Source of the DNA: Ceratodon purpureus
Taxonomy: Eukaryota; Streptophyta; Bryopsida; Pseudoditrichales; Ditrichaceae
Direction: 5' to 3'
DNA length: 64,000 nt
NCBI GenBank assembly: GCA_014871385.1
Contig: CM026421.1
Coordinates: forward strand, 21,504,865-21,568,864
A program made the position numbers and the translations under genes. The notes under the pieces were generated by a model, which saw only the letters and a list, made by a program, of their open reading frames with translations, ran no database searches and was not told the DNA's origin. Positions 4,685 through 58,492 of this stretch are shown one piece after another. How positions within the stretch are numbered: position 1 is the first letter of the stretch; the number at the start of each line of letters is the position of its first letter.

Positions 4685-7600
4685 ATGGCATTTGCCGAAT
4701 CGACAACCATTGTGAATCCGCTCGGTGTAGGTGATTTTCCGGGCCACATTTCTTCTCTGGCTTTGAGATTTGTTGAGGACTATGCTAAAGAATGCAATTC
4801 TGCAACCACGCCCTCTGTAACGGTGCTGAGCTTTTTCAGCGATGTTCTCCAAGATGCCACGGAGGCGGCAAGGAAAGGAGAGGCCAGCAGTTTGAACGCA
4901 CTGTGCTGCTTTCTTCCCGCTGCCATCAAAAGAACCATGACTGGAGCATTGAGCCGCGAAGAGGAATTCCAGGCGTATCTCTTTGAGGTCTTGTATTGGT
5001 TTTTAGAACTGGTGGAAGCGACGTTCGCCTCCGGAACTGGTGACCTTGCAACTCAAGCTATCAAAATGGGACCAAACATTTCACAGCTCTTGGTAGCTCT
5101 ATGCGATGTCTTGAACTCAAAGAGTAAATTTTACGGTACATTGGGCAGGAAAAGAGGGGTTCTTGTATGTCCATGGAGATTTAAATCACTCTTGCAAGTT
5201 CCAGGAGTATTCGTGAAGGTAAGTGGCGGGCATGAACATGGTCAGGTCTACTATTTCTGCTCTCAGAAAGGAGTGTCATGGTCTGGTAATGATGGTCGTG
5301 AACCGCGCGGTTGCTTATGTTGTGTGCTTCCAGCATGGGCAGATCCAGTACTGTTCAGCCTCACATCAATCTTAAATTCAAAGGTGGCATCTGGAGGCGG
5401 ACACGAGTTGATGTTGAGAATGCTCTGTTACCTTTTCAACTTTTTCGAAACATTTAGCCTTCCAACAATATCACTTCTTCTACGTCCTTTATGTGAGTTG
5501 CTGAATACTGATACTGGTAGCAATAGCTGGAGAGAAGTCATCCCACAGATAGAGACCAATTCCAAAATTGAGTTCAAGGATCTTTGCAGTAAGGCATGTT
5601 CTAAATTGTTTCAGACTCTGGACGACATGATCCCTGTAGAGCTTGTGAATCCTTGTTCTAGCTTGGAAGTTGTCCGTGAAAATCACGAGGCCTTCTCAGA
5701 TATTATCAAGCAACTCCACACAATCACATGCTGGGGAGTGAAACATTATGGTGGTACTCTAGAGCTCATACAAATAAGAGACTCACTCAGCAAGTTGCAA
5801 GAAAGGACATGGGAACGATTCCTTGATTTGAAGTGGCATTCGTCGGCTTGTGAAAGCATCGGAGCTGCAATGGCAGCTACGCTTACACCGACTCGTGGGT
5901 ATGGACTGCTCCGAAATTTTTGTTAAATTTTACCTGCTGGGAACGGAACGAGAAGATCGTCAATATTGAAACCATTTTGTTGTTTTCTTTTACTGCAGAA
6001 AGGAATCTCTGTTTTCACTTAAGTGGCTAGAGGAGAAGAACATAATTAATCGGTTTCTTGATTTCGTCTTCAGAGTCGACTACATCTTTAAGGCAAGTTT
6101 CTAAGTACCTATGGCCTTTTTCTTGACTGGGACTTTCAACTTCTCGTATTGAAGCTCATCTGCACAATTATCTTGTCTGAACACCCAGGTGAAAGATTTT
6201 CTGGCACTTGTAGCCAAGAAGGGAGTGGTGCTAGAAGAGAAGGACTTTTTAGCTCTAATTACTTATAGTGATGACCATTCTGACGACGAGGAGGACTATG
6301 AGTTCTACGCTTCGCCTGACCTGGTAATCAAGAATTTAATGATGGTTCTGCGAGTTTACATGGAAGTCTTTGGAATTATCAAGGTCCTTGCATTTTTATT
6401 AGAGTGGAGGTTTTCTTGTTTCTGCTGCTTGGGATTAGGCTAGCTTGAACTCGACTCACATTCTAATGTTTGATATTAACCAGGTAGGAGAGTTGTGTTG
6501 GATGAATTCGATACTTGGCCTGCTTGTACCTTACTTCCATGTCTTGTTCCTATTTTTTAAAACTCAGATGGCAGCTGTTATGCTGGATGAACTTGATACT
6601 AGTGCATACTCAGCTGGCTTTTTGGAACGGGTTCTCAAATGGTTGGAGAGTCGTCAGGTGCTAATGTCGCATGAAATTCTGCATGAACTGAAGTTTTTTA
6701 ATGTTCAACTCTTGAATGGTAGTCCAGATTTCAAAGCTGAAGTTTCATGCCAAAGATTGCGTTTGGACTTAGTTGCTTATTCACGATTGTGTCATTTCAT
6801 AATCTCGTGATCAGGTCAACTCATAGGCAAAATGAAGTCTTACTAAGCTGGTGTTTTTCACGTTAGCAGGTTGATTCAGTTATTTATGGTTCAAGAATCT
6901 TCTTTATTCTAAGAAAGCTTCTCACTAACGACAAGGAGAGAACTTGGGAAAAAAGGTGCGTGAACATATCTACAAAAGTAGTCAGAAATTGGATTATGTC
7001 CTAGTTCCTATACTCTACAGTAATCTGAGAGTTTGTTTGTATGATAGGTTCTTGACTCTGATGAAGAAGCATTCGGCTGGCGTTCGGGAGAAGGACTTGG
7101 TGGACTGCCTGTGTGATGTTTCTGATCATTACACGTCCCATCATGTAAGCATCTGGTTCTTAAATTGAGATCGGATAGAGGTTGTGCTGCAGTGCATTAC
7201 CATCGCATACATTGAAAGTTATTGTGTTGAAGTTTGTCTGCTATGCCTCATGCAATACAAACTCTTTTCATGGATTAAAAACCCACGCAAAACAAGCACT
7301 TGAATTGCTGTTCATGTTGACACACTGCGAGGTCTACTGGGAATCGTGTATGGAAGGTACCTTCTTTTCTTTGTTAGGACTGGCCGTCTGCTGGTATTTG
7401 TTTGAATTGTGATCACATACTGTATACAGGGAATTGAACCTGTGAAAGACACTCATTTGCAGCCGAGTGACCAGCAAGCAAAACTTCTGCAGGCTTGCTC
7501 CAGTGCAGATATGACATCATGTATTTCCACAGACATGGGTGATGTTCTTAAGAGTTCAAAAGAACACTTTGTAAGTAGAATGTAAACCTTCCTTTGAGGC

Positions 7601-9642
7601 AATTATATTGAGAGTACATATCAGGAACAAAGTGTGTAAGTTTCTGTCTACTTCTTTGGATTCTTGTTACGTGTTCATTGTGGCTTTATTCTATCCATAG
7701 TAGCAGTATTTACAAAGCCCAGGTTGCGAGGTTTTATTTCCAGCTTGTATCATGCACATGCAGGAAAAGGAAGCTGAAACATGGAAGTCTCAGGAGCTGG
7801 ATCTTCATGCAACTACTTCGTCAGAGCTCGCAAAGACTCTGGCAATAGATTTTCCCATGACCAGACATGAGACTGCGAAGAAGTGCCTTGATCGCTTAGT
7901 CTTGGCTAAAAGTTTGAGCATCAATGTTGATGTCTCGTAAGAATGCTGAACACCATCTATTTGTGAGCGCAATAGATACACTAATGAGGTGTAGGTTTAT
8001 TCAGAAATTTAAACTTCAGTCAAGTATTGACTCTGGAATAACGAGTCTGCATTTATTTGATTATCGTAGGTGGATTAGTTGACGGTTGTAACATATGGCG
8101 AAGGCAGTTTCAAAAGCTGAGTGTTCAGATAGTTTAATTTTGGTATTTTTGCAATTCATAACATCTCATAAACATTTATAGGGTTCCAGAACATTTTCTC
8201 ATTTGGGGTTTCGATTTTTATTAGTCGTAGAATTGCTAAACATATAATTTCCTCTGTTTGGTAAGCATTGTTGCTCAAATTTCTCAGATTTTGGGCGTAC
8301 TCCAAATGATTTTATTAAATATATACAAATTTGACTTCTAACTATTGTATTGCTGTTCGAAATGGGTTGTCTGTTCGACATGGTCTGGAATCAGGAGTTT
8401 TTGTGATTTCTCTCATTCCATCTGTGAATAACATCTGATTCCTTTGCTCCAACAGTGAGGTTGTTAGTTTTGCTAATATTAAGAATTGATGATGATGTTG
8501 CCACGCCTTAGCCAGTTGCATATTGTCTTGACTTGTTCGCTAACTTATATAATACACATCATGTTCTCTGGGGTGTGCAGTGAAACCTCTATGGCGCCTA
8601 ATGTAATGGTGGATGCCATGGCAGCTGAATTGCAAGTACTGGAAGCCTTGAAGGAGGAGAGCTTCCTTCATTGCAATGTTATTCGACAGGTAGAAGAGCT
8701 CGGCCAGAAGCATGCAGAGGGTTATGATGCGCTCAGGCAAGAGCAACACACAAGACTCGAGAAAGTAAGACTCGCTTCTTTAATGATCAATATTTTCGGA
8801 AGCTCTGATAGCATTATGTGGGAAGAATGCGTTTTGAATTGCGAATAGTGACTCATCAACATCGGCTGGTTTATAGATGTTTGATCGTAAATTAGAATAA
8901 GAAGTGATGAAATAGATTGGAATGTGCTCCCGCTAATGATGCACTTTTGTGTCCAACAGTACCTGGAAGTATGTCGCAAAGAGAAGGAGGATGTGATTTG
9001 GGAAGCGTTGTATCAGAAGGCGAAAGTGTTAGCAAGCATGAAGAGAGCCAGTCTTGGAACAGATGAGGACTTATCGGCCGAGGACATACTGAAGAGGCTG
9101 TTTCAGAAATCCCAGGATGCTCTGAGGGAGGTGATGCACCAGCTTGTTTGTGATTTTGATTTGCGATTGATGATGCGTTGCTGGTTTTGATCACACTGTG
9201 GTCATTGTGATTTAGTTGGTATTTCTGTTATGCATTGAACTTGTAGTACACTTCTAGCGTGCACTTGCCAATATTTCTGGATACAACGATGCAGAGTATC
9301 TTGTGAACTTGCTATTGCAACCTTGATTGAGCGCTTCTTCACGAGCGGCGCTTCAGATGTTCCTCACGTGCTTTTCATAAAGTCTCATCTACTGAGGCCT
9401 TGATGTTGCCACAGATGGTCGGCAAACAGAGGGAAAGCTTGGAGAGGGTGCCCAACTCCAGCTGTGTTGTATGTTTCGACAAGTTCTCCCAGAAACGGAA
9501 ACGTGCGTGCCTTGAGCCATGCGGGCATGCAAGTGCATGCATTGACTGCACCACACAAGAGTGGAAGAGGACGAAGAAATGCCCTATATGTGTAACTGAC
9601 ATTTCGAAGCCCATCCCTATCCCTTTTAAATTGTTTTTTTGA
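4685..9642 (+). CDS. RING-finger (C3HC4) protein, tandem copy 2, complete
   Basis: Eleven exons give about 870 residues: 4685-5898, 5999-6092, 6189-6323, 6568-6657, 6870-6955, 7048-7144, 7430-7570, 7764-7936, 8581-8764, 8960-9130 and 9415-9642. I chose the first ATG of the long first exon (MAFAEST); the frame is open upstream without an earlier ATG. Exon 1 encodes about 400 residues of a domain I do not recognise. It is shared with copy 3 and includes YYFCSQKGV followed by closely spaced cysteines and DPVL. Exon 3 is acidic (DDHSDDEEDYEF). Exons 9-10 are helical and charged. The last exon is a C3HC4 RING (CVVC ... CGHASAC..C ... CPIC) ending in IPFKLFF. The intron after exon 2 starts with GC instead of GT. 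Predicted role: ubiquitin E3 ligase, inferred from the RING only. Confidence 0.82.
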
Positions 9643-10463: not shown

Positions 10464-10484
10464 TTAACCCTTTAGTGCCCAGGG
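10464..10484. repeat. piggyBac left end: TTAA target duplication plus 17-bp TIR
   Basis: TTAA at 10464-10467 is followed by CCCTTTAGTGCCCAGGG at 10468-10484, which is repeated exactly in inverse orientation at the right end. The match stops after 17 bases, where the left side runs into a T tract. This is the 3' end of the element relative to the transposase. Confidence 0.9.
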
Positions 10485-11329
10485 TTTTTTTTCCAGCAAC
10501 TCTGTTTTTTAGCGTTTTCTGCGCTATTCTTGGAATTTACAAAAATAGGTTCACATTGTTGGATATCTAACCGTATAGTACTGTAGCCAAGGGTAGTAGA
10601 ATACTATGGGCAAAACATGGACCCAATCCAACCGTGGGAAGTTGAAGTGTATAATCCGTATATGGGGGACAAAAAGTTTGCAGTTTTGTGTATTTTTCCA
10701 GGGGGGGGGTAAGTTTGGAACCCCATAAATCTCGGAATAAATTTCTAAATTTAGTAAAAGAGCTGTTCAGCTATGTCCCATGTTAAAATCTCCAAGATAA
10801 ATCAAAAACATATATGTGCAAAATTACAAAAAGATTTAGAGGAATTTTAAGATTCAGTCATGAAAACAATGTACTGTTTATGGTGTTTTTGGTACATTGG
10901 GTCTCATTCATATGACTCAAATGTAATGCAATCCACAACGGTTGAAAAGTTAGAATGGAGGCATAAAAGAAAAAAAGTAAAAAAAAATCCTCAAATCTAC
11001 TGTATTTTCCTCTAAATACACTATATGTACACTATTATGGCAATACCGTAGAAACAACGCTGTACATCTTTCCAGCAGTCAAACATGAGTCTTCTTTCTA
11101 GACTATCATCCACCTCCGTTACCAAAATCAACTGAAACAGCCACATATATGTCCAAGTGACTCAAATGCAAAACATGGCTCCATTGGGAACGTTCAGAGA
11201 ACAACCATCCCCTGTCCAATGAGAATGAAGGAGCTGCGAATTCCCAATGTCAGCTGAAACCGTTGCAAGGAACCACTGTCAGCTGAAACCAGGGAAAAAA
11301 AAAACGGTTGCATCCTTGAGCTTGAGCCT
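10485..11329. other. Left subterminal region of the piggyBac element
   Basis: About 850 bases between the left terminal repeat and the stop codon of the B3 gene. It is AT-rich, with a G run near 10700 and several A tracts. I see no coding sequence. It probably includes the 3' UTR of the B3 gene and subterminal sequences recognised by the transposase. Confidence 0.4.
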
Positions 11330-13591
11330 CTACTTGGTCACTCGGAAGCTGTAAGTGTCCACTTGGGTAAAGGTCATCTTATCCCCACACTTCACCTTGT
11401 TCCCCTTGCAAAATTCTCTCCAGCCAGCGGTAAAGTGGTACTGCGTCTGAGCTGCATTCGCAGTCACAGCAGAAGAAACTCGAACGGTGGAATTGTCGCC
11501 AATCAATTTATACTTGAATCCATCGAAATTCCCTGACCCCAGCCTGCGCCAGAACTTGGTTGGAATGTCCTACAGCAGGAAATACACGCGTTAGACAGCA
11601 ATCTTCCTCTTCTCTCTTGATCCTACACGCTAAAGGAATCTGTAACTACATTCAAGAATTGTTTCAGAATTGCAATAACAAAAGCAGACTATGATAGTCT
11701 ATTCCAATTCTCCGTCTCCACTGCATCATTCACATCCGAAACCAAGAGCTCACGATTCGAATAAATCAAAATGGACACTAATTCTATACAACACCAACAA
11801 AGAATCAGCCACATGAGCTGAATTGCTCGCCCTTTCACCTACACAACACAGCAGGATTCAAAACACGGTACAAAGACAATCCTCATGAACCCAAGATGCC
11901 GACGATCTGACCTTACACTCGACAAAGTAAGACCATCACTCCCGCAACCGAGAATTCTAAAAAAACCAAGCAAACGCAACACCATCTCACGCTCTACACA
12001 AAAAACAATCCCATCTTAGCAACTGTTTCAGCCACTCCATATAAAACATACTCGAGGCCATGACTCACAACACACTCGTAGATCAGTCCTGTAGAAGTTT
12101 GACCTAAGCCACTCCCCGGATTCACCAACGACCTCCGAATCCTACAACAATCTTCCAACAAAACCCCGAAAGCAATCCCTCACACGAGAACAAACTGACC
12201 CACGAAGCCACACTCATCAAACTAAAACACAAGTGGCGCTAATCAAACAGCAAATGAAGTAGGAATGCGAAGCACACGAACGTAAGCACTTGACAAGCCA
12301 CAGGTCAACAAGCTTCCCAGCAAAACGATGATCGCACACATAATTACCGACCAGAGCTCTCTTCACCTTCGCAACCAGAAACACCCTCCCCTAATCACCA
12401 GCTCAAACCAATACCCATCTCAATGACTTCACACAGAACACTCAACTCTCAAATCCCGAGCACAACAACCAAAGTAGTAATCAATCTCAAAAACCCACCA
12501 AAAATTTCACCCTCTCTCCCACACAGAGTGCAATGAACTTACGAGCTTGTGAATTCGGAGGTGGCTCGGGCGTATAATTTTAACAAAGGCCGGTTGCAGC
12601 CCCGGCGGGTGGTGCACATCCGCCACCAAGGTCCGCTCGTCGACTGCCTCGAAAATGATGAAGTGCCCTACTCCAATTCCCTGCTCCTCGAGGAACTCTC
12701 TCCACTCTGTGCCGATGCTGCGGGCATCACCTCCTTCACCGCGGAGAACCTTCAGAGGCCACTCCCGCTGGCCGGCGATGGAAGTAACGATTGTGCAGTT
12801 CCTCCCCCCTGGCCAGCGGGTTTTGGCGGTGAAGTGGGCTGGAATTTCCTACAAAACAGGGGAAATCACGAACTCAGAGGGAGTCGAGAGAGAATGTCTT
12901 GTCCACTGCAGATTCATGAGTGACTAGCTTCTGCCCTGTCAATAACCCCCTTCTAATCACAGCGCCATACAACTTCTACCTGAGAGTGAAGCACCCGGTC
13001 CGCGACCCAACAAAAACATCCTAAAGCCAACTAGCTTCCACACAACTGCACACACCGGGGATTCAAGCACGCTCCACATACATGAAAATACATAAACTAC
13101 TGTAGTATCGCATCTAAATGCACTGTTTAAGCCACTTCTTGCGAGCTCTGAAAGTGTACTCGAAGAGAACCGAGCTGCTGCGTGCTGCTGCTCCTGTGCG
13201 CGGCATCTAGAGGGAGTCAAGAGAGAAGCTTGCACTAGCCGGGTACCACAGGGACACTAGATTCCCAAAGCAAAGGAGGGGAATGATGACATGTATCCCA
13301 CATTCATTAAGACATCCTGAAGAAGGCTCATCAGGCCCCCTCGTCCTAACGTCCCTTGTGACCCCCTCACCTCAAAGCTCCACACACTCCCCCCTCGGCT
13401 TCAATCCAAACAAAACACTAAGACGAACAGATCGTGATCAGTTCTCTGCAAAACGGAACAAGGAGGAAACACATGGATTGGAACAAGGAGCTCACCAGTA
13501 CGTCAAAGCTCGAACTGCCAGTGATAAGGGTACTGAAGTACGTGACCCCGCTCTCCACATACGGGGTAAGCGCATCTTCGAATGCCTCCAT
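11330..13591 (-). CDS. Double B3-domain (REM-like) DNA-binding protein carried inside the transposon
   Basis: Three exons (13591-13496, 12848-12543, 11569-11330), all joined in phase 0, give 213 residues starting MEAFEDALTPYVESG and ending YSFRVTK. Exon 2 is a B3-type domain (EIPAHFT ... GTEWREFLEEQ ... GHFIIFEA). Exon 3 is a second, shorter B3-type half (DIPTKFWRRL ... AGWREFCKGNKVKCGD ... YSFRV). B3 domains are plant-specific DNA-binding folds; two per protein is common in the REM subfamily. Splice sites are canonical (CTG|GTGAGC, GTAG|GAA, CTC|GTAAGT, GTAG|GAC) and I find no stop or frameshift, so the gene looks intact. It lies between the captured SMC3 fragment and the left transposon end, on the transposase strand. 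Whether it is a captured host gene or a long-standing passenger is not known. Confidence 0.78.
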
Positions 13592-14052
13592 GAGGGATCT
13601 GTGAGAGTGAGAAGAAACTGAAGCTGTGTGAGTGAGAGGAAAATGAGAGAGGAGAAAATGAGAAGTGTGTCAAAAGAGTGAGAGTTCTGAGCATATGAGG
13701 GGAGCAAAGTGCAGGAGAGATCATGGGGCTCAAAATTGATGTCACAATTGGGTTTAGGGCTGAGCAATTACTTACTGAATCTAACGAGATCACAATTGAG
13801 GATCAGTGCGTCGCATCGCCATTAATAACTCATCATGAGATGTGACAATCTAATATATGAGAAGTGACAATCACAAAAATCACCAAACCACAACACAGCA
13901 GTGAGTACCGACAATGTAACATACACAATATTCCATGAACATACACAGTATTCCCTCAATCTACAGCATGTTACATGATGATTCATGCGAAGTCAAATTG
14001 AAACAATGGAGATTCGCTGATCATTAGTTGTGGCGTAATAGAAGTGTTTGGA
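13592..14052. other. Spacer between the B3 gene and the SMC3 fragment
   Basis: About 460 bases with no exon that I can recognise. It should hold the 5' UTR and possible promoter of the B3 gene. A purine-rich stretch occupies about 13600-13690. Confidence 0.4.
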
Positions 14053-14701
14053 ATCACCTGTGTTCGTCATTCTGCTCGCATTCGATCTTCAACATCTCTC
14101 ACACATCCAGTTCCTTCTTTGCATAAAAACTCGAAGCCTCTGTTTTTTGCCGTTCTGCAACTTCTTTCTCTTTCAACAAAGGCTGCAGCTCTTTATTCAA
14201 AGCTTTCAGCTCCTTCTCCAAATTCTTGGACTTTTCATGAGCCTCAACCACAGTGTTGTGCATTTCAGTCGACTTCTCAGAAACTCTTGCTCGAGACTCC
14301 TCAATCTGTACGTGATCACCAAAGTTGTAACCTAGATTCAAAGGTAGCCACAAGAACATACCGTCCATACATGACATAATTCATTCTAAATATAAAACCG
14401 AAACTTCGCAGGCAAGAAGGAACTGTCCTAAGGGCATATGAACATTCCACGTGCGGCGAACTCCCAGCAACAGACTAGGCGAGGGCTTGTAGCACAGATA
14501 TGGATCGAAAGACGGCATGGACAAACCTCCTCAAGTTTTTGCCGAGTGTCGAGAAGTTCTTTTTCGAAGATAGTGTACTGTAAAGATCTCCGTTGCTTGT
14601 CCAGCTGCTGATACTTTTTGAGCTCTTCCTTCTCCTCATCAAGCTCTTTCAGCCTCTCCTCAATGTACTGGACCACCTCAATAATTTGCTTTCTTCTATT
14701 T
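14053..14701 (-). pseudogene. SMC3: Captured fragment of the cohesin gene SMC3 (two exons with intron)
   Basis: Two neighbouring exons of SMC3 are present. The first (about 14701-14526) reads ENRRKQIIEVVQYIEERLKE and continues through EEKEELKKYQQLDKQRRSL and YTIFEKELLDTRQKLEE. The second (about 14310 downward) reads IEESRARVSEKSTEM and on through KELQPLLKEKE. Both match the N-terminal coiled-coil arm of plant SMC3 as I know it. SMC3 is normally a cohesin ATPase of about 1200 residues; only some 130 residues are here and both ATPase halves are missing. After KKELDV the frame is lost: a two-base insertion relative to the expected DVRDVEDR gives a TGA. The intron and splice sites are kept, so capture was at the DNA level. 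It is a transposon-borne gene fragment and cannot make cohesin. Confidence 0.82.
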
Positions 14702-14759
14702 TCTGTAGAGTTGCACATTGAGAGTGTTAGCTTTGATGGGCCAAGACTTTGAGGAGTCA

Positions 14760-15050
14760 AAAGCGCATATTAAAATTCAGTCTGCCATGAGACAAAATAT
14801 ATATATGTTGCTTGAACATTATTTCTTGCTGCTTCCGTGAACATAGCACACTCATCATCTTTCTATCTCTTGAAAAGTCCAGTACAGAGAGCTGTGCACA
14901 CAACAAGCAAATAAAAAGTCACATAAGAGAAAACATAAGCACGTACAGCTAGCAGTTACAACCCTGGATATCCTCTACCCCTTTGAGATACTGCCTGAAT
15001 GAAGGACCATATTTCTAGTTATATAGCGAAATCTTGCAGAGACGTAATCG
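14760..15050. other. Junction between the SMC3 and ECA3 fragments
   Basis: About 300 bases without a recognisable exon. The exact join between the two captured host segments lies somewhere between the last recognisable ECA3 exon (near 15060) and the first SMC3 exon (near 14701), probably inside intron sequence of both donors. Confidence 0.45.
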
Positions 15051-15059
15051 AACTTACCT

Positions 15060-17689
<2,630 letters not shown>

Positions 17690-18446
17690 TAAAAAAGGTT
17701 TGACAAACTTTGTAAACCTTAAAATATCTCCCAAGTATGCAAAAGCGACATAAGAAAACATACTAGGGGTTGATGCACAGAAACATGGTTAGCATAAAAT
17801 CCACATCATATGCCAACCTCTACTTTGAAACAGCACCTACATCGACAGAAAACACAGATCTTCCTAACCATGCGTGTACTTACCAAACACAGAAATTGTG
17901 ATGCCATCATAGTAGATAATGGATCATTGCAAAACGAGACAACACACTGACTTGTGGATACACTTGTTATCAGTAGAACGAAACCCACGCTTCACTGATT
18001 TTATGGGGGAGAACAGGGGGTTTGTACAAAGCAAAATGAGCTCCCCATAGCTGCAAGAAATCACGTATTTTTCCGGAACTCAAGTAGATGAGCACTATCA
18101 CTGCCATGCAAGCAAAAAAGAAATTGGCACATACATCTAAACCATGTGACATTACAGTATACAAGGATTACAGTATCCGAGATTACAAGCACAAGTGCGG
18201 ACTGATTGCATTGAAGTCGGGGAAGTCTCGGGCTCCCTTCACCGAGTCACCGCTCTCAGTTTCAATCTGAGATAGCAACATATACAAACACATGTCAGAA
18301 CATGAAAGTGGATTCACAATTGGGTTAGGCATCAACTAAACATGTTTGAAGTGACGAATCAACATGGCTCACCTCCACCTTTTCAGCATTTTCGGGAAGA
18401 ACTTCAGCGTCCACAGTTTGTCCCACTCTGCAAAACCGCAGTGGTG
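17690..18446. other. Spacer between the ECA3 fragment and the transposase
   Basis: About 750 bases just beyond the transposase stop. I could not match this to ECA3 exons. It may hold ECA3 intron sequence, the transposase 3' UTR, or another piece of captured DNA. A short open stretch near 18190-18270 has no recognisable family. Confidence 0.4.
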
Positions 18447-21254
18447 TCAAATTCGGAGGCCCTCATGGGCAGCCAGAAAACAAACATCTGGACAAACTGC
18501 TTTTCCCCTGCACCGTTTACACGCCCACACCGTTCTACGCCTGCAGATGATACAGAGCCTCCGTTTGCCACTGCGGGAACTGTAGTGAGCGTTCCAGGTG
18601 TGAAGAGCTGCAACTCCCGGTGTAATAGCTGTAGGTAAATGATTTGGACGGCGTCTTCGGAGTAATGGTGTGGAGAGAGGGTCCTCAGGAGATGCGTTCA
18701 GGTTGACAGGGGGAGGATGCATGTCATCAGGGGTGACAAATGTCTCAGCAGGTGGGTTGGGGATCCCACATCCAGGCGCCATGGATGCAACTGATTCTTG
18801 CGATAGAATAAAATCTGCAGTGAGTGCAGATTGCGGCAAATCTCCAGAGGACACACGTCCTGAAGGGGAAGACATGGATGGAGCATGGCCGTCACTTGGA
18901 GAAACGAACCCCTTCTTGCCAAAATCAGCTGGGAGTGGTATCTCCATTAAAGCATGGGCAACTTCAAGCTGGAAATCCCGATGTACCATGGGCCTCAAGC
19001 CGCGTGCTAGGCACAAATGCTTATGCATGATGAAAGCATTCGTGAGTGTGGTATCTAGGCAGAAGAAGTAAACCCGGTGCCACCACTTCTTGGTGTAGAT
19101 TTGGGTAGAGAAACTCCCCCGCAACTGGTCCTGAGTGTCGACTCCCCGCATGTATTTCGAATACATCAGCTGGATCGGTGAAGTTGGTATTCTTCTCTCA
19201 GCACCCCCGGAATTCCTTGTCACAAACATCCCGTACCTCTTCATAGGATCAGCTGCAGTTGATAGGAAGTGAACCCCCTTGGTATCGTGCCAGTGGATGG
19301 GCGACATCTTCAAGTCCTTGTGCATTCGGATCTGTAGCGACCCCCTCACTCCTTTCGAGCCAATCATGTGGAGGCTAGAGGGGTACCCCACCCGCCCCTC
19401 ACGGATTGTTCCAACAGCATAGAAACCACGGGACAGGAGGTCATCAAACAACATGGGACTCAAAAAAAAATTATCCATCACCACAGTGTGATGACGGTTC
19501 TCCCATCCAGATGTTAGTCGAGTGACGACCCCTGCACCGCTCCCACATGCATGCACAGGCAACCCGAGGATGGCTTCGTTTGAGGCACCGACATACACCT
19601 CAAGGTTTAAAACGTACTTGGTAACAGAACAAGCCATGCACCAAAGTTTTATACCATGTGTCACGGGCTTCGCAGGCATGAACTGTTTGAAGCTGCAGTA
19701 ACGACCATTGTATCCCACCATGCACTCGTCCACACAGAGATACTCGGATGCATTCCAACTCTTCTGATAATTGACAATGAGATTCTCAATGAGCCACCGC
19801 ACCTGTCCAATAGGATCGTACCTGGGATCCTGTTTGTTATGCACTAGAGTTGACTTGGGCACCACATGCACATGACGCAGTATGTGAAGGAATCGATTCC
19901 TTGTCATGGTGTTCGCAACCTCACTGCAATGGAGTGCTTCAGCTTGAACGCTCCAGTAATCTCGCAAAGTCGGCTCGTCTCTCACGGCCATGAATGCACA
20001 AATACCTGTGAACTGCCGAAACTCTCTTCGGGTGATGGGCTTCTCCCTCTGATTGCCTGCTGAGGAGCTCGGTGCAGTAGCCTTGAAGATGGCATAATTG
20101 TTTGCCTTCTTTGCAAGCTTCTGCTGAATCTTGTCGTCCCAGAGCTGTAAAAAGCAGTGAACTGGCGAGGGCACATCTTCTCCACTCCACCACGTACAAC
20201 CAGGTGTATGGCCTATGAAGCCATCCCTGGGCAGCATACTCCATGTTCGAGCATGCCAGTTGCAATCGGCATAGTGGGCGTCAAATGTGGATTCCTCCAA
20301 TGTCCGGGGTCCATGCATCCTGTAATCGCCAAGCTCTCCAAGTATGGTGTAGATGGACTCATCAGGGTCAGGATCAAACTCCCCTGTCGACATTCCGAGA
20401 CGCGCGCATCCACCTGCGGCCTCGACATGGCTGGTCGGGTCTGGAAACCACTCAGGATCAGACTCCTCTCGTGGACTCTCCAGGAGCGACCCCTCACCTT
20501 CTACAGCATCAGCCCCCGGCGCACTTGCCCCCGTCATACTTGGTTGGAGAAGAGTAACTCGCACCTGCGAGGTCCGAGCTTGCACACCGAGGCTTGGAGT
20601 AGAGCAATCCATGGTGAAAGTCCGTAACCCCAGCAAATCTCCAAGACAGAACGGGTCAGCAAAGGCATCCACGAGGACGTTCTGAATTGCAACCAGTTCC
20701 AACTCCGTTGACAGTGGAGGCACCCACGGAATGCAGAGGTTGACAGGAACGAGCTGTACTCCAAGATGTCTCCCGAACTCAACCTCAAAGCATACCCTAC
20801 CATCCGGACCATCTAGAACCATCTCTCTAACAATACCAAACACAAACTGACTTGGATTTGAAATGTACTCCCCGCCCCACTCTAAGCAGAGAGCTTGCAC
20901 TTGAATGCGGCGTATGTAGTTCCTACCTTCCTGGCCGAGGTCGCTAAGACTGTCTGTGGAATCCCCTTTGCAGATGTCGGGCATGTCTGCGTTACAATCT
21001 GCCCACCCTCCAACTGATCCATCTTCTTGCGAGGGGGACATTCCTTTGTCATCGCAGGGCCAGACACCGACAGGCTCCACAACTTGCGGTGGACACACCT
21101 GAGTTCGCCCATCGCTTTGACCCTCTGTAACACCAGCCCCTGAAATGTTGTCGAAATTCATTGCTCCAAACTCCTCCGCCCTGTCGTACAACTCCCTCTC
21201 CGACACAAGCAAATCCGTGCCATCAGCTTCGACACTCTGAATTACAGGTGCCAT
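18447..21254 (-). CDS. piggyBac-type transposase (DDE_Tnp_1_7), intact
   Basis: A single open frame of about 935 residues from ATG (MAPVIQSVEADG); in-frame codons further 5' lack an ATG. Residues 1-300 are acidic and low in recognisable domains. The catalytic region runs from about 385 to 770. The piggyBac aspartates are recognisable in LCVDECMVGYNGR (about D509), TVVMDNFFLSP (about D594) and YMRGVDTQDQLRGSF (about D706 and D709). Also typical are ITRREFRQFTGI and YTKKWWHRVYFF. The C-terminus ends in a cysteine-rich finger (CIICRRRTVWACKRC ... VCPDVC), which in piggyBac binds the terminal repeats. It is longer than the roughly 600-residue insect protein because of its N-terminal extension. 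It acts by cut-and-paste at TTAA, in agreement with the element's flanks. No disabling change was seen. Confidence 0.93.
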   Translation of the reverse strand: MAPVIQSVEADGTDLLVSERELYDRAEEFGAMNFDNISGAGVTEGQSDGRTQVCPPQVVEPVGVWPCDDKGMSPSQEDGSVGGWADCNADMPDICKGDSTDSLSDLGQEGRNYIRRIQVQALCLEWGGEYISNPSQFVFGIVREMVLDGPDGRVCFEVEFGRHLGVQLVPVNLCIPWVPPLSTELELVAIQNVLVDAFADPFCLGDLLGLRTFTMDCSTPSLGVQARTSQVRVTLLQPSMTGASAPGADAVEGEGSLLESPREESDPEWFPDPTSHVEAAGGCARLGMSTGEFDPDPDESIYTILGELGDYRMHGPRTLEESTFDAHYADCNWHARTWSMLPRDGFIGHTPGCTWWSGEDVPSPVHCFLQLWDDKIQQKLAKKANNYAIFKATAPSSSAGNQREKPITRREFRQFTGICAFMAVRDEPTLRDYWSVQAEALHCSEVANTMTRNRFLHILRHVHVVPKSTLVHNKQDPRYDPIGQVRWLIENLIVNYQKSWNASEYLCVDECMVGYNGRYCSFKQFMPAKPVTHGIKLWCMACSVTKYVLNLEVYVGASNEAILGLPVHACGSGAGVVTRLTSGWENRHHTVVMDNFFLSPMLFDDLLSRGFYAVGTIREGRVGYPSSLHMIGSKGVRGSLQIRMHKDLKMSPIHWHDTKGVHFLSTAADPMKRYGMFVTRNSGGAERRIPTSPIQLMYSKYMRGVDTQDQLRGSFSTQIYTKKWWHRVYFFCLDTTLTNAFIMHKHLCLARGLRPMVHRDFQLEVAHALMEIPLPADFGKKGFVSPSDGHAPSMSSPSGRVSSGDLPQSALTADFILSQESVASMAPGCGIPNPPAETFVTPDDMHPPPVNLNASPEDPLSTPLLRRRRPNHLPTAITPGVAALHTWNAHYSSRSGKRRLCIICRRRTVWACKRCRGKAVCPDVCFLAAHEGLRI

Positions 21255-21763
21255 ACGTTGCGGGCTGAAGTTCGGCCAGAAATTTGCAGGGACAACCACA
21301 GAACAATGAGTCAGTCAAAACGAAACCAAACAGGAAGACCAAATCATGGAAACCACATCTCGAAACCCATGTTTCATAATCCCAAACAAAAGCCGTATAT
21401 ACACAAATAACGACGCACAATCAGTTTCCACAAATGAACAAACATCATATGGACCATGTTAGAGTAGAAGATACTTGGTTCCTTTTATGTCAATGCAGTC
21501 TAGCACTATGCATTCAGAATTGAATCTAAAATTCTTTTGAGAGAGGCCGAACAGATCTGATGGGGTGACTTGCAGTGGCTCAGCCCATAACTAATTATGT
21601 TCAAGCAAATGTTGTGGCCATTGCACGCCTTACTTCTTTGACTCCAGCATTTAACGGGTTGCACTCTGTTTGATGTACAGCAATTCTACAATTGAGAAAC
21701 AATGGGCCTACATTTCTTACAAGCGAATCTGAATATGTGGAAGTCATTTCATAGTTCTCTTAC

Positions 21764-21770
21764 CTGGGCC
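21764..21770 (-). other. Possible 7-nt microexon linking the accessory exons to the transposase
   Basis: On the minus strand TTTTTTGAG|GGCCCAG|GTAAGA gives an acceptor, seven bases and a strong donor. Joining the phase-1 end of the exon at 21902 through these bases to the acceptor TTCAG just before the transposase ATG would keep the frame open into MAPVIQ. This is an inference from splice signals alone. Confidence 0.25.
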
Positions 21771-21901
21771 CTCAAAAAACATTGGTTCCACCTAATTGTT
21801 TGTTCATTAAATTCACAAACATGAAATCAAACTACCAACCACCTGATGCAATAAGTCAAACTGTTATGAAAAGGCCATGGATTCGTGGAGAAGGGGCGTA
21901 C

Positions 21902-24900
21902 CAGGCAGAATCTGCTCGTCTTGGATTGATACACCCACCCAGCTGTTGTCCTCCTTCGACTGAGACCCCAGCGAGAACAGACTGCGTCTCAGCCGTTTAC
22001 CAGGGGCCCTCATGCACAACACATAGGACCTCCGCTGCGGTGGTGTGAAGTCCTTTGGATCTCGGAGTTCAACGTCGGAGCAGACCTCCTCCTCGACGAC
22101 GATGGGCATCTTCTTACGTGCCGCCCGTTTCCTCATGTGCCCCGAGGCAGAAACCAGAGCTCGTTTTTTCGCTGCTGCGACTCTTATGGCAGGGTCTTCA
22201 AGAATGGGCTGGCCATCATAGCCAACAGCAACGCGTCGAGTAGCTCTCTGCCGAGGCATCCGGGGGGCCCTTGTCTTCTTAGGTGCCTCTGTTTTTTTTT
22301 TTACTGCACAAAATACAACGGCAGATCATTACAACTCTAAGCAATTACATGCTACAGACCATGACTTCCCCCCAAGCAACAGTCCCTCCAAAAAATTGCA
22401 AAACCACCATACTTCATTCTGAACGGATCAAGGCCACATTGAACTCATTTTGGACAGCCAGTACATGGTTGCTTTAGGAAGTTGTTGACAGTAAAAGTAC
22501 CTGGCTTTGATGGCTGACCCTTGGAGCATTCTCCTACCTCCTTCAACTCCGGTGACTTCTTCGAGTTCTTCGAAGCTCTCGGCTTAGCTGGTGTCTTTGT
22601 CCTTGTCTCTGTAAAGAAGGAAGCAAGTGATATGTGACATTCCAAATAGCAACAAAGGTAAGGAACATGCAAAATAGCGAATAGAACTTAAGAGGACAGT
22701 GGAATGTGCACACGCTTACCTGCACTAGTCCTGGCCCTTTTCTCAGTTGGTTTTTTCAGCGTAGCATTTGGTCTCGCAGCGGCCGGTGCAGCAGGTACAT
22801 CAAGGTCGGCATCTGCCACGCACAATGCTCAAAGATTAGCGACGGTCTCACATGCATAGAGCATACCAACAGGTTCAAAGAATTTATAGCATATTCACAT
22901 AGAACTAACTCCCGGATCACTTCACAGATTTACCTGCAGATTGAATGTCCTTCATGTTGGTGCTGATGGCACATGGAGGGTACACTTCATCATCGTCTCG
23001 GTAATCATGGGGCACATTTTCTCTATCTGAAGACAACGCGTAATCTGCAAATTGGTAAATTGGAAAGTCAGATTAAATCAATGCAAACAACTTCCTTAAA
23101 ACAAATCGATCCAAACATATACAGTACATGGAATGATGATGTACCTGTAAGCAAACCGAGGTCAAATTGTTCCAGAGTTGACAGCCATGCATAAGGACAA
23201 CCTGCCAAGAGAGAACACATGCACAGTGAGTACACTGAAGCAATGCACATTTTTTTAATCACTACAAATCCTATGAAGGGTTCACAATCTCTGAATCTCC
23301 CCTTGAATTCACTGGTGCAAGCAACAGCAGACGAGAGTCGAATGAAAGAACCCGCACAGTGCATATAGATTAACAACTGCATGAACAACCTCGAAGCATA
23401 CTCACATCCAGAACTATGAACCCAACGTTTGATCTTATCGGGAGCAATGAACCACACTCCCTTGCAAGTGCTGATGGGGTTGATTTCCTCGACTATTCCT
23501 TTCCCCTTATCGACTGCTCGTTTCTCCTTCTCGACATCTCCTTTCCCCTGTTCATCGTCATGACTGATTACTTTTGCATACCAGTGGGACATGTCCTCAC
23601 CCACAGCTGCTCCTTTTCCCTTGTCGACCTCTCCTTTCTCCGGATGATTGTCACGTTTGCACACAGGTGGGAAGTTAGGTGCACTGTTTTGACCAACAGA
23701 TGCCCTTTCCCCCTTGCCGACATCTCCTTTCTCCTTGTCGATGTCTCCATTCCCATGCTGTTGGTTAGGGTTAGTCACTGCTGGGAAGCGAGGGCCGGTG
23801 TTCTCCCCCACATCAGAATTGACATGCACCGCCGGCTGCACAAGTCTATCGATCAAACCTGTGACACAATCCAACCACCAAGCCTTTAACTCACATTGAA
23901 TCATTTCACAAAACTGCACAGAGTGATGAGTAGCAACAACTTGAAAGCAGAATCAAATCGTTACCTGTGACATAATCCACCAAGGACGTCGACACTGGAA
24001 TCCCTTGTGTAGACCCCGACATGGCCAAATTCTGAATAGCTGTATTCCCCAGCACCGCACTCGTCTTCTCCGACATGGCCAAGCTTTGAGTGACCACGTT
24101 TCCCGTGCCATGACCAAGCCCCGCAGAAGTCTTCCCCTGCACAACCAGGTCTGCCTTACCCCGTCCGAGAACAGCACCTGTCTTCCTCGACATGGCCTTC
24201 CCCTGCCCAACTTTGTTCTCCTTGCCTCGTCCGGACACCGCATCTTTCTTCTCTGCTGCGCAACTACTCTTCCGAGTATACTTCCTAACAGGCTTGTTGG
24301 TGATGGCACTCATTCGAACTGAGCCACCTCCTGCACCTACTTCCCCTTTCTCGATCTTCACGCTTAGTATATGCTGACCTCTTCTGCAAGAGGCACTGAC
24401 GTTTAAATCATCTGTTTGTGCAGCATTCGATGGCATAGATTCCGCATGCTCACGAAGTCCTCCATCTGTCATAGCACGCCCATGGCCACCCTCCTTCACA
24501 GGATCACATGGCAAGAGTTCTTTGTCTCTGTGCAAAATCAAATGTGCGATGGAGTTAGCCAGAACATATGACATCCCGAAAGACCTCTGCAACGATTGGA
24601 ATGATCTATGAAATAAAAAAACCCTGAGTATAAGCAGAAACGCACATTCTCAGTCACAAGAATCTTAATAAACATACAAAACATAGGTAACATGCTGCTA
24701 TCATAGAAAATAGAGTCAGTAGTATCCTCTTGAAGACAGGGTGACAGTTCAACCCTCGCCTAGTTTCGTTGTATATTTCAGAGAAGAAACTTGATGATTT
24801 GCATCGGCTATTCTAATTTTTTCTCTCTCTAATTATCACATCTCTCTAGATTGACTGGCAACATGTTGCACGACTCAACATCCACGTCAAGCAGCCCCAT

Positions 24901-25278
24901 ACCACCTAGAGAATTAAGACCATCATTCAAGAGCACACTGATTCACCTAACTTGTATTCAAAATTCCTCATCTGTCCGAAACCCATGGGTCCTCTAATGA
25001 TTCAAGCTGAAGTGGCCCTCATCAGCACAGGATGGAACAGGTTCTTCACTGGGTATAACGAAACAATGTTTAACCAATTTCTTCCACATCCTCACAACGA
25101 GGACAAAACCAACGAGGACAACTGATACCCTAAGTGCATGACCACTATCTCGACCGTATGACCTAAACGAAAAAGATTGACATGAAACCAGATTGACATG
25201 AAACCAGATTGACATAAAAACGAAAGACCTGCATAAGGACTAGTGCTTACCTTTCGATGTTGCTTGATCTTTCGACAT
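21902..25278 (-). CDS. Transposon-borne eight-exon gene, basic and low complexity, function unknown
   Basis: Start MSKDQATSK at 25278. Exons read as 25278-25251, 24525-23965, 23858-23406, 23201-23145, 23044-22934, 22812-22720, 22608-22501 and 22303-21902. All junctions are phase 1. The protein is rich in K, G, A and E with repeated short units (for example GRGKADLVVQGKTSAGLG and KGDVGKGERASVG). One better-ordered patch is GVWFIAPDKIKRWVHSSG. The end is strongly basic (KKKTEAPKKTRAPRMPRQR), which suggests nuclear targeting or DNA binding. If the last exon is not spliced it ends in MAFS with a stop near 21864. Alternatively it may splice onward into the transposase (see findings). I recognise no family. 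Its place inside the terminal repeats, just upstream of the transposase on the same strand, suggests an element-encoded accessory protein or an N-terminal extension. Confidence 0.6.
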
Positions 25279-26602
25279 GATTCTCGGCCTGTGTGACCTG
25301 CCCTTCGCCTGGATCCCCATCAAACGTTTGCGACATGTCTGCATTCGCAACACCTTCAACTGGCTCCATCAAATTCCAAGCTTGAACGGAAGTCAGTCAC
25401 TCCCTCGCATGTGGATCAACAAAATCCCTCACCAAAAAGCCCTAAAACCCTATCAACTCCTACGATCTTTGCTATCCTACCCCTGTGTCTCTGAATGTGT
25501 TGAGCATCGTCTCCACTTCTGAGCCTCTCCATCCCCCGAGCCATGTCATTGCGTGTTGGAGGTAAGAGCAGGGGCAACTCCTTGGCCCTGTCATGGCCTA
25601 GTTATCTGCGTCCCAAGGCAAGAAATCCAACTACACATGACAACATTATCCCCCCGAATTAGCAGATGAATTTCTAAATGCCATCCCTGTAAACTCTTAT
25701 GCAATGCAGGATCGACACATGCTCATTGACACCGTAGAATCATAGATCTAAAACATAAACAATGCACAGACTCATAATCGATTACCCTAACCATGCAAAA
25801 ACTCGTAGATTAGAACCCTAAACAATGCACACACATGCTTCATTCACCAACATCAACATGGTAATCAAGATTCTGAAACCCCCTCAATCCCCCACATACC
25901 CAACACAAGCTCTCTAAACCTGGCGCTCCCTCATAAACCATAGCCGTCAAACGAGAGAGAGAACTCAATGCAGAGCTCAGATTCCAACCTCCACGACGAC
26001 ATCAAACCTCCAAACCCTCCATCGTGATCCGTGACTAATCCCCTGGAGCCACCTACAGCACCTCAGAAACAGTTGGTAGCACAAGAAAAATCTAAGGATC
26101 CACATGCACAGGCTCATACAGGAATATTTGTGGGCGAGGGAAACCAAGGCAGAGACAACACTAGATGCTGCTTGCACGAACATCGACCTCTCTCGAGGAG
26201 CAGCTTCACGAGCACGATGATCATCATTAGTGACCGTTATCGAGAACTTTTCTGGGAACTAATTGGGAACAAGTTCGAATCACGAGGGGAACGGGCTTCC
26301 CAGATCCCGGAAATTTGCTGCGTGACAGAAGTTCATCCCACCGAGGCCACTCTCTTTTGTACGCTTTTCTCTGTATTCTCTTCTATTCTGCTTATCTTTT
26401 GCTCACAGATTGTCTCCGTATATTGCTACAGTGACGTATTCTTGTCGATTTGAAGCCTCTACACTACTCCGAATTGAGATCTGATTGTTGCATTGTGAGC
26501 CCCTCAGAAGAACGTAAATCTGAACAGGTATAATCGAGATCAAATTCATTTTGGATTTTGAGTTATTCATCTCCAATTGAGTTTCGCAACCACATTATGG
26601 TT
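25279..26602. other. Right subterminal region of the piggyBac element
   Basis: About 1.3 kb between the accessory gene start and the right terminal repeat. It should contain the element's promoter and 5' subterminal recognition sequences. I saw no further exon that I could support. Confidence 0.4.
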
Positions 26603-26623
26603 CCCTGGGCACTAAAGGGTTAA
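26603..26623. repeat. piggyBac right end: 17-bp TIR plus TTAA target duplication
   Basis: CCCTGGGCACTAAAGGG at 26603-26619 is the exact reverse complement of the left terminal repeat and is followed by TTAA at 26620-26623. This is the 5' end of the element relative to its transposase. Confidence 0.9.
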
Positions 26624-28566
26624 CAAAAAGGACCAGAAATCCTTTGAATCAACCAGGTACTTTAGTGTGATATTTTACTGCTCAATCCAGAGCTAAATCT
26701 CACTGACTCATCAATTTCACGGGTTTTTATAAATATAAGATTGAGCTTTATAGTACGACCACCCCTTGCCTTCATCCCATGCAAAAACTGGTTGCAATAT
26801 TACAGCATTCACACCTACAAATTAAGATAAAAGACATCCTCAGGATTTTGAGTCTACACTCCAAGCCATTACTAATATAGAACCAAAATCAAGGAAAAAT
26901 AAGGGTTACGAATGCCGGCCAGTATTACACCATTTTACTTTTGAATCGTGGAAAAGCATGGTTTACCGGCTATTCACATTGCCAGCACATTTTTTAGTTT
27001 TTTTTACAAAAATCTCAATTCGTTTTTAAAAAAAAATTACACATAGGCCTATAAAAACTCCTCACTATCAACTTTGGGCTCCCTCGAGTTTTATTACTTT
27101 CCATCTACCATTTGATTTTGGAATTAATACTACAATTGTAGATTGTTGAATTTCTTTTAAGTTTGCTACAAGAACCTACTATCACCATATGACGTTCACA
27201 AAAATTTCTTTGCACAAAACAATCATACTCGTCCCTAAACCCAAAAATATTTCAAATCTCATCTTTATGCAACCACGATATACTATACAATGTCCTACAT
27301 TGCAAGTGTCATGGATTTGGCACATGACTACATAATGAAAATTAACCATTGCGTCCTAGGAAAGACTACCATTGGTAACATTACCACAATTTAGCTACTA
27401 GACTAAATTGCTTGTTGCCTGTGGATCGTGCCACAACTATAGATAATTTGTCAACTCCTACAAATCTATGAGCTGTATATATCTAATAATAATGTATATT
27501 GGATATATTATATTGTATTTCCAATACAACATAGTGCAAATTCTCCAAGTTTGCAGCCCATCTACAATTGATTAATCAATAAAAACATGACACGATTATC
27601 GGGTCTAGTCAACTAATTTGTTTAATACATGGCTTCTAGTTTCTTGTACAAATTGAAAGGAATTATTGGTTTATAACCTTATATCCATAATTTAAGAAAT
27701 ATTAAAAATTTATCTTGAAAGAAATAATTGATATAACGAGAGGTTTCAAGAACAAATTTCAACAAAATTTGACGTTTAAAATAATTCACATTTTTTTAAT
27801 CTCCTAATAAAATGTTAAGACCCCATATTTGGAGCACTTACCATGAGTTTATTCAAATCAGTATACTCGTGCCACCCATTCTTTACACTTTTACAAATCG
27901 TCTGAAATTGTTTTGTAATTGAATTTTAAAATGATCATACATTTTAATTATCAAAATCCTTCAACTTGGAGGATGAGATTATTGTAAGCCGGATATTTTG
28001 ACCATTTACACAGGAGGCTATGCTATGGCTTAGAAATACACTACCAACTTACCAAGTTACATGGCTAACTACAAGTTACAAGTGGAATTGAAGCTCATGT
28101 GAGCATCTCATGATTTCATATTCTATGGCGCTATGCATGTGAAGAATGCAGTGGAGCCTGTACAGTACTGGAGCATTGCAGTGTGTGCAGGTTTGCAAAC
28201 GTGGGGATTGATGGAGCAGGACGCATCAAATGGTGTATTCATTCTGGTGCCATTACAGAAGACAAATCAGGTTTGAGGATTCCAGGAATCAGGGGTTGGG
28301 GGGAATTGGGTAGCAAATTGTAAGAGTATGAGGATGTGAGTAAGTTACTCCAGGCTGTGCACTGTGCAATGTGGGTCTGAGAGTTGTTAGTATACCGTTG
28401 CTTGTTTGCATTAATTTGTGTTGTTCGATGTAAGGGGGATGTGTTAGATCCGGTTTCTGATGTTTGAGATGGCTATGGTGATGTGGTTTAGGGTTTAAGC
28501 TTCGAAGGGTAAGCGTTTAAGCTTTCGGCACCTCGTGGATCTGTGCAAGTTGGAGCTTGTTTTGAG
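26624..28566. other. AT-rich spacer upstream of RING copy 3
   Basis: No gene is seen. The first 1.4 kb are very AT-rich without recognisable repeats. The last 500 bases are more balanced and should contain the promoter and 5' UTR of copy 3. Confidence 0.5.
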
Positions 28567-31500
28567 ATGGCAGAGGCTGATGGTGCGGATCTCTTGAGGG
28601 GTGATGTTGGATGCAATGATACGGAGGGTGAAGGAAGAGTGAGTCTGCAGGTGGTGGAACAATTGTCACAGCGTAGGGTGCCAGAGTGTGCAGCAGTGGA
28701 CCTGGATACCTTGAGTCCATGGGAACTCGTGCTCGTGATAGCTGCATATAAGAATCTAGGAAGGTCACACTCGACACCGGTGATGTTAAAGAAGCTCAGC
28801 GAGGTTCTCTCGGAAGCAGCAGCTTCGATAAGCAAGCCAGCGGGCAGTAAGGGGTTTGATTTATTCTCCTTTTGCAAGGAGCTTCCGAAAGCCATACGCG
28901 TTTGTTTAGATGATGCGGATATGGCGAAGTCGCACCCTAATCAGGACGAATTTCGTGCTCACGTGTTTGAGGTTCTTTGCAAGCTTGTGGAATTCACCGT
29001 AGCGTTCCTCGCTGATTATGTTGGCAATCTTTCACAACAAGGGGAGGGATCAGATGAATCAGATGAATCAGATGAAGAGGAGGACGGTGAAGAGCTCGAT
29101 TTACCCGCCCTCATACACATTTTGGAGGCAATATCCTTTGCCTTGGATTCCGACATGCGATACTATTCTCTGCTTAGTGAAAAGGGTGACAGAGAAATCC
29201 TCGTGCTACCATCCAGATTGGAATTCGCGTTGCGAGTGCCAGGATACACTGTCAGAGTGTTTGATGCTACTGATAACAAGACGCACTACTTTTGCTCTCA
29301 GAAAGGAGTAAACCAGCTTGGTGTTACCTGTGAATGCTGCAATCCTCCTTCGGAGGCTGTTGATCCAGTTCTTGTGAGTGTCTTCTGGCATCTTGCCAAT
29401 ACGGCTTGTGTAAATGGGTACGAGCTCCTGCTGAAGATTTTGAGAACTGACACGCTTCGGAAGGGTTCGAAGTCATACAAGCCGCGGACATCTGTCCAGG
29501 TCATGGCGCTCATTATACGTCCTCTTGAACAATTACTGAAGCACGACATCGATCATTATTCGTGGAGAATTGTCGTTCAGCACTTGGAGGAAAGCTTTTC
29601 TGCTGGTGATATGATGAGGATCTGTTGCTCCACATTTGACGACGTGTTTCAGAATTTGAAGAAAGATCTTATTGACAAGAGAGAATGCCGTAGTACCGAT
29701 GTATTTGAACGTGCAACACCTTTTGACAACATCTTTTACACGCGCAAAGCCTTCATGAATTTTCTTATCTATTTGCACACAGTTAGGAGCTGGAGTTTGA
29801 AGGCTTATCGACCTGCAGATGGTGTTTTGTCATTTGATGACCCTGGCCAGTTGCTAATATTGTTCTTGGAGCGCATTGATGAGTCGAAGGGTGCTCAACT
29901 CGTCTGTATAATTTTTCGAGAATTCTTAGACGTATGCGCACAAGCTTTGAGGTAAGTTGGTCTTGAACTAGCAATTTCAAAGAATCATGATCGAGTATCA
30001 ACAGTAGCGAAAGACCATCCTGGAAATCGACTTGTCTTGTGTTCAATGCAGATATGAAGTGCCGTTTGCAAAGAATATCTTACATTGGCTGAATGAGGGG
30101 GTGGTTCTTCTGAGGTTCCTGACGTTGAAGTGCTATCCAGAGGTTCGAATCTGCAGACGGCTACCTTCAGTTTTTAAATGTTTTGCAACTTTTACATGGT
30201 ATTCTCATTTTACAAGAGACTGCTTTCTCAACTTTAATGAATAAGTTTTTGTGGCTTCAGATGATCAGACTTTTGGAGTTTGCCGGCAAAGAAGGGCTGA
30301 TTTTGAAAAAGGAGGTGTTTGTGACAATATTTAATGTTAAAACGTTGGACGAGAGGAATGCACACGCCCGGACCCAGGTAATGTACACAGTCCATGCTTA
30401 AGCCACATATTGTTAGTGGAAGGTGGATTCAGTGAAGTGCAAATGATATAATTTTATTGCCGAGGCTCAGAACTTTCGAATGTGAGCACCATTGTTCCAT
30501 GCGTACAACAACAGTCTTACGAGAAAATACTTTTATCGGATCATCAACTAACTAGTTTTGTTGGGTACGTTGCATACAATGAGATTCAGGTTGCAGTCAC
30601 CATACTGAAGGAGTTCAATTTGGCTCCCTATACAACGGAGTTAATGGCGTCTGTTTGCAATTGCCTGATAAGATGGCAGGTATGTAACACCATCTATCAC
30701 TTCAATCATTTGGTAGGACCCTTATGAGGCAGGCTTTGTTTGCAGACGCGAAGATTTATAGCCACTAGATTTGTGTTACAATTGTGCACATTGCAAAGAA
30801 GAGTGAGACTTGTCACTTTGACAGGTCCCAAATCCCATCATTAGTAGTCATACGGTATGCTGCATCTTGGAGAAGCTCATGGCCTGTGACAAAGATAGAA
30901 AATTAGGAGACAGGTTCGTAACACTTCTGAACTTTTTCAGCAGTTTATTTACCGAGGGTTTAAGATATCAGTGAGTGATGTTGCTCCCGATTTGTAGCCA
31001 CCACCAAAGCTAATGGATCTTAGTACCGATAATATCTTTCTCCTAGCCACCTTTGCAAACTTCTACTTCTGAAATTTGAAAGATGTTGGCTGTAACAGTT
31101 TCGTAAGACTACTCTGGAAGTATGCATCCAACCTTCCAGCTAGTGATTTCGTGAGCTGCTTGACAAAGATTGCATGCAATTATACATCCTTTTCTGTAAG
31201 CAGCTCTAGCCTTCCTTCTCAAATTCTCTGTAGTTGGCATCATCCCTTGGCAATCTGTTTCACTCTAGTCCTCTTCAAACACACCTTACTTCTATCATGA
31301 GTGAAAGGACACTTGTTGGAAGAGGAACAAAATGTTGAGAAAATGTCCGAAAATCCCCTCGTACTTTTTCAGTTCATTCGATTTCGATGTTTTGACCTTC
31401 TCTTGTTACGGCATACAGGATCAGCCCAAGATTATTATTCACCCTGGTGAAGAGACAGAAAAGTTCCTGCAAGCCTGCTCGAATGCAGACGTGGAATGCG

Positions 31501-57977: not shown

Positions 57978-58492
57978 GATGCAACCCAAACCTTAGTTGA
58001 CATATCCCCCACAAGTTTCTGTCAGGGGTTATCCTCTCTCACTACAAATATCTCGCGTGGTCAACGCTAAACTTGACCAGAAAGTTATTTATATAAGGTA
58101 GACCGTAGACATACCTAAAACCACCAGCCACCCTAGAACCAAGTTCCTGTGTATCTCCCCAGAACCGCAACTTGGCTTTTCAGAATACTCAATTCAAATT
58201 GACCAATCAAAACACTCATAAAGTTGGTGGTTTTGGGTCGGATCATGAGTGAAAATTAGAAATAGATAGGTGTGACAATGGAAAAGTCTACATATCAGTT
58301 TTGGGTCACGAAGTACTTTTGTGTTTAGAAATTTGTATTTATTTCAGGATTGGGAAGAAAATTTTGAAAAAAACTGCATTATGTGAGAAACCTGTTTTTC
58401 TACATGTGAGAATTACACCCCAAAAATAACTTAGACTGCCTATTGGTCAACTTCCACACAAACTTTCTAAGTTGCTTTTCAGCCATTACATT

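Follow-up and report, generated by a model that had tools for sequence, protein, structure and literature searches.

Can a transposon of the piggyBac superfamily gather host genes in a plant? The question is raised by a locus of the moss Ceratodon purpureus (assembly GCA_014871385.1, contig CM026421.1, positions 21,504,865 to 21,568,864), of which the whole stretch of 64,000 nucleotides, hereafter the window, was analysed; all positions below are counted from its first nucleotide. We consider it likely that segment 10468-26619 is a piggyBac transposon of a plant genome that moves by cut and paste, encodes its own transposase, and has taken up host DNA as cargo. The ends of the segment, their TTAA flanks, the transposase, and host gene fragments that contain introns together give good support to a gene-carrying piggyBac element.

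The element comprises 16,152 bp between perfect 17-bp terminal inverted repeats, each adjoined by TTAA. The left repeat, CCCTTTAGTGCCCAGGG, lies at 10468-10484 on the plus strand and starts with CCCT; its perfect complement occupies 26603-26619 on the minus strand. The target-site duplications lie at 10464-10467 and 26620-26623. These coordinates agree exactly with a preliminary description of the locus, which had placed perfect 17-bp repeats and TTAA around 16,152 bases. The element carries both terminal marks of the piggyBac superfamily, namely short inverted repeats starting with CCYT (here 17 bp and perfect) and a TTAA target duplication at both ends. With up to 3 mismatches allowed, CCCTTTAGTGCCCAGGG was found at two sites in the window; both are the element ends and both are perfect. 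Shuffled sequence yielded a mean of 0.07 matches (100 shuffles, up to 3 mismatches). The window contains 307 TTAA sites, forming 46,758 pairs more than 100 bp apart. Two of these pairs enclose at least 17 perfectly inverted bases, where about 5e-6 would be expected under independent bases: the element itself (17 bases) and the pair 58602/58731 (23 bases), which sits within a palindrome with 175-nt arms. The inverted match of the element extends 3 bases outward beyond TTAA (TTG/CAA), which was taken as chance. The shorter string TTAACCCTTT occurs three times in the window, and its third site (46170-46179, minus strand) diverges from the terminal repeat past CCCTTTA.

The transposase is encoded by an open reading frame (ORF) at 18447-21314 on the minus strand, with 955 aa from stop to stop; the first ATG, at 21254, leaves 935 aa. 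The chance of a 935-codon open frame at the base composition of the element is about 7e-22. The product matched DDE_Tnp_1_7 (PF13843) with an expectation value (E) of 1.4e-73 over model positions 1-349 of 349. Against solved structures, it matched the piggyBat transposase (E 5.3e-23) and chain 6x67, labelled 'Transposase' (E 6.6e-19), which we take to be the Trichoplusia ni piggyBac transposase. Aspartates 529, 614, and 726, and another in DTQDQ, align with both solved chains, piggyBat and 6x67, at the motifs VDE, MDN, and VDTQDQ, so that the conserved aspartates of the piggyBac superfamily are in place; they are presumably the catalytic ones. The C-terminus has a Cys-rich motif, CxxC...CxxC...CxxxC; a Cys-rich tail is a trait of the piggyBac family. 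About 380 aa on the N-terminal side of the transposase domain contain no Pfam domain. Judged from the open ORF, the full-length domain match, and the aligned aspartates, the transposase is apparently complete, as had been proposed before, and the element looks autonomous.

Two fragments of host genes lie between the inverted repeats, the arrangement by which Pack-TYPE elements are recognized. The larger one is derived from a SERCA-type Ca-ATPase gene (14811-17680, minus strand; 10 exons). It comprises 330 codons in one continuous frame with 1 in-frame stop, and GT-AG borders are present at 9 of 9 introns. Both gene ends are missing; the match covers SERCA residues 185-501 (E 4.3e-98). The best NCBIfam model was the SERCA-type TIGR01116 at 329 bits, below the whole-protein cut-off of 703, as expected for a fragment. 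The parent gene may be ECA3. Two further candidate lesions in this fragment were dropped. A second stop disappeared when the acceptor was placed 11 bases further, which puts the TAG at the intron end and closes the frame, and the codons of a seemingly altered TGES motif fall within a presumed intron. The other fragment matches human-type SMC3 residues 185-311 (E 1.6e-15) and lies at 14058-14702 on the minus strand. Its two exons (14702-14527 and 14305-14058) hold 140 codons with 1 in-frame stop. That the fragments keep introns suggests that they were captured as DNA rather than through spliced RNA. They are 108 bp apart; unless the pieces were already neighbours, so close a joint hints at a mosaic drawn from two or more host places.

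The element also contains a B3-domain gene (11330-13591, minus strand), for which a three-exon model was built by hand (13591-13496, 12848-12543, and 11569-11330). The model encodes 213 aa, is intact from ATG to stop, and has two GT-AG introns. The product matched PF02362 in two B3 stretches (E 1.7e-17), and its PDB match, to VRN1, was weak (E 0.052). The B3 domain is plant-specific and was the chief feature by which the sequence itself pointed to a plant host. The intact frame was not accepted as a sign of selection, since at the rate seen in the fragments (2 stops in 470 codons) about 0.9 stops would be expected in the 213 codons of the B3 gene. The third-position GC content is 0.65 in the B3 gene, compared with 0.46-0.53 in the other four element genes and 0.45-0.54 in four flanking ORFs; the B3 gene may be of different origin or age. 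With this gene, the contents are as first described, that is, fragments of two host genes and one complete-looking host-type gene on one strand, all of which were found on the minus strand.

A further gene, absent from the preliminary description, lies upstream of the transposase (21864-25369, minus strand). This hand-built, intact-looking model has eight exons, encodes 673 aa without internal stops, and has GT-AG borders at 7 of 7 introns; because the model was picked by hand, its openness is partly selected. The predicted product is rich in Lys and Arg and has short repeats. It matched no Pfam family at E up to 1, and its single PDB match (E 0.63) was regarded as chance. It may have been captured from the host or may belong to the transposon as a second gene.

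Three related genes form a tandem array on the plus strand (101-1327, 4631-9642, and 28513-32846), with the element between units 2 and 3. The array genes end in a RING finger. Unit 1 is cut off by the window start. In the RING part, identity to unit 3 is 57% for unit 1 and 52% for unit 2. Each unit probably represents one gene, as co-linear translated matches suggest. Units 1 and 2 are 3304 bp apart. The distance from unit 2 to unit 3 is 18,871 bp, or 2715 bp when the element and one TTAA are subtracted. The spacing is thus ordinary once the element is removed. This fits one insertion without proving it, since the TTAA duplication is alike for any piggyBac insertion.

Two palindromes were seen elsewhere in the window. 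A near-perfect palindrome at 58489-58847 has 175-nt arms that are 97% complementary and 9 nt apart; it holds the TTAA-anchored 23-base inverted pair mentioned above and is possibly a foldback or miniature element. The other, at 53853-54214, has 167-nt arms that are 99% complementary and 28 nt apart, and overlaps the 3' end of a kinase-like ORF (54157-56115). No Rfam match to a structured RNA was obtained at gathering thresholds.

The same anatomy might arise from two separate piggyBac insertions. In that case, the two ends would come from different elements, each of which lost its inner end, and the DNA between them would be host sequence of this locus that was never mobile as a unit. TTAA flanks every piggyBac insertion, so matching flanks are no proof of one event, and the transposase is distant from both ends. 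Fusion of neighbouring elements has moreover been published as a route to Pack-CACTA elements, according to the part of that review available to us (PMC13317346). However, the two 17-bp ends do not differ from each other, and at up to 3 mismatches no inner end was detected in the window. All five genes recognized inside use the minus strand, opposite to the adjacent array genes, which use the plus strand, and removal of the interval restores the ordinary spacing of the array. We therefore consider two insertions improbable. An error of assembly that joined unrelated contigs is less probable still. Exact TTAA-repeat ends are present on both sides and the spacing of the flanking array is coherent, which speaks against it.

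A different account, which we regard as quite improbable, holds that the piggyBac element captured nothing and that another transposon (Helitron, MULE, or CACTA) inserted into it with the gene fragments. Other plant elements are known as gene carriers, as stated in the accessible portions of two reports (PMC8903248; PMC2528002), and the recognized cargo fragments are grouped between the transposase and the left end. Among inverted pairs of exact 11-mers 150 bp to 12 kb apart in the element, however, none is flanked by a duplication of 8 bp (exact) or 9-11 bp (with one mismatch allowed). Without the 12-kb limit, 57 inverted 11-mer pairs were counted, including the element's own ends, which also ranked first among the inverted pairs of a blastn self-comparison. 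The three minus-strand frames flanking the transposase showed no further transposase domain at E up to 0.5, plus-strand frames not being covered.

Several points weigh against a single gene-capturing piggyBac transposon. The idea that the interval is mobile as one unit draws on the anatomy of one copy at one locus. The TTAA flanks are no evidence that both ends came together, since all piggyBac insertions have them. One of the 100 shuffles reached two repeat matches, although this control tolerates 3 mismatches, whereas the two real matches are perfect. Beyond the 17-bp repeat, the 400 bp at both termini share no match longer than 9 bp. The position of the transposase ORF, about 5.3 kb from one element end and 8.0 kb from the other, is unusual. 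The exon limits of the cargo genes were set by hand, and the scan for nested elements is blind to Helitrons, imperfect or short repeats, elements longer than 12 kb, and duplications shorter than 8 bp.

If the segment is a gene-carrying piggyBac transposon, a mechanism can be proposed. As in other members of the family, the transposase would attach to the CCCT ends, cut the complete interval out at TTAA, and insert it again at a different TTAA; we infer that the element is mobile as a single unit. The cargo would have entered as genomic DNA, with part of the Ca-ATPase gene and part of SMC3, each including introns, and the B3 gene would have been acquired whole or nearly whole. The most likely route of capture may be either fill-in during break repair after excision or the fusion of two nearby elements that lost their inner ends, after which the hybrid transposed. 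Capture implies that parent copies of the cargo genes exist elsewhere in the genome. A bolder proposal is that a still-autonomous plant piggyBac lineage routinely gathers host genes and keeps the B3 and eight-exon genes as working accessory genes. We regard this as doubtful; if true, it would mean a multi-gene, self-moving carrier in a superfamily not counted among the gene-capturing transposons of plants.

Since piggyBac is an established laboratory tool, the ends and the transposase of the element are directly testable. With an apparently intact transposase, capture, mobility, and cargo upkeep could be studied in one element. Gene capture by inverted-repeat DNA transposons of plants is documented for MULE, CACTA, hAT, PIF, and Mariner elements, the scope of the Pack-TYPE survey as given in its available text (PMC8903248). 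A piggyBac example would widen gene capture to a superfamily that is unmentioned as a carrier in the available portions of three plant papers (PMC13317346; PMC8903248; PMC2528002). Specifically, piggyBac has 0 mentions in the main text of the Pack-TYPE survey (PMC8903248) and in a review from 2026 on gene capture in plants (PMC13317346), as far as these texts were available.

Searches for a precedent were made in several collections. No paper in one open-access library contained the term 'Pack-piggyBac', and no description of an autonomous-looking plant piggyBac element with several host genes was found there, which is not proof of absence. In the single paper of that library found to combine piggyBac with gene capture in plant genomes, piggyBac appears once, within a reference. 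In the part of the moss genome paper at hand, piggyBac occurs only within the word 'piggybacking'. Viral contigs gave 2 pattern matches to the transposase, 0 of them confirmed, and 0 matches to the exact TTAA plus repeat, and plasmids gave no match to the transposase; with few or no plants in these collections, such absences carry little weight. PiggyBac in plants as such is not new and has already been mentioned: in the excerpts available, a fern genome table lists PiggyBac repeats (PMC6890710) and another paper refers to piggyBac isolated from plants (PMC10813416).

The element resembles piggyBac of Trichoplusia ni and piggyBat of Myotis in its DDE_Tnp_1_7 transposase, aligned aspartates, short CCCT repeats, and TTAA target. 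Its ends conform to the 12-19 bp, CCYT, and TTAA given for piggyBac in the consulted part of one source (PMC10175614), and the CCYT rule appears likewise in a passage of another (PMC2872659). It differs from the superfamily in being longer (16.2 kb), in carrying host genes, and in the roughly 380 aa without a Pfam domain before the transposase domain; the longest piggyBac in one survey of small animal genomes, as excerpted, was 9.51 kb (PMC10813416). Far larger foreign loads can be carried by piggyBac ends, with Teratorn as an example (PMC5601938; PMC10175614; PMC6431247), and artificial cargoes have reached 100-200 kb (PMC6431247), according to the available sections. Teratorn of medaka is likewise a giant piggyBac element with foreign genes and has been shown to be active (PMC5601938; PMC10175614). 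As described there in part, however, it is a fish element of about 180 kb with largely herpesvirus-derived cargo, whereas the element here carries plant gene fragments. In the minus-strand frames next to the transposase, Pfam gave no viral family at E up to 0.5, and no search aimed at herpesvirus was made.

With the Pack-TYPE elements of plants, the element shares host gene fragments within terminal inverted repeats. Pack-TYPE elements are non-autonomous by definition in the available text (PMC8903248), whereas here a 955-aa transposase ORF with aligned aspartates is open. The name 'Pack-piggyBac' in the preliminary description thus suits the captured fragments but not the apparently complete transposase. 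Its claim of novelty is consistent with the library searched, where no such plant piggyBac was found described. Transposase-bearing gene carriers are not new in kind. Gene-fragment-carrying transposons of grapevine combine a transposase-coding region with host exon and intron sequence, as here; in the part of the report available, they belong to several superfamilies (CACTA, hAT, Mutator, and PIF), unlike the piggyBac element described here (PMC2528002). What appears new is the combination of a plant host, piggyBac, an autonomous-looking structure, and several host genes.

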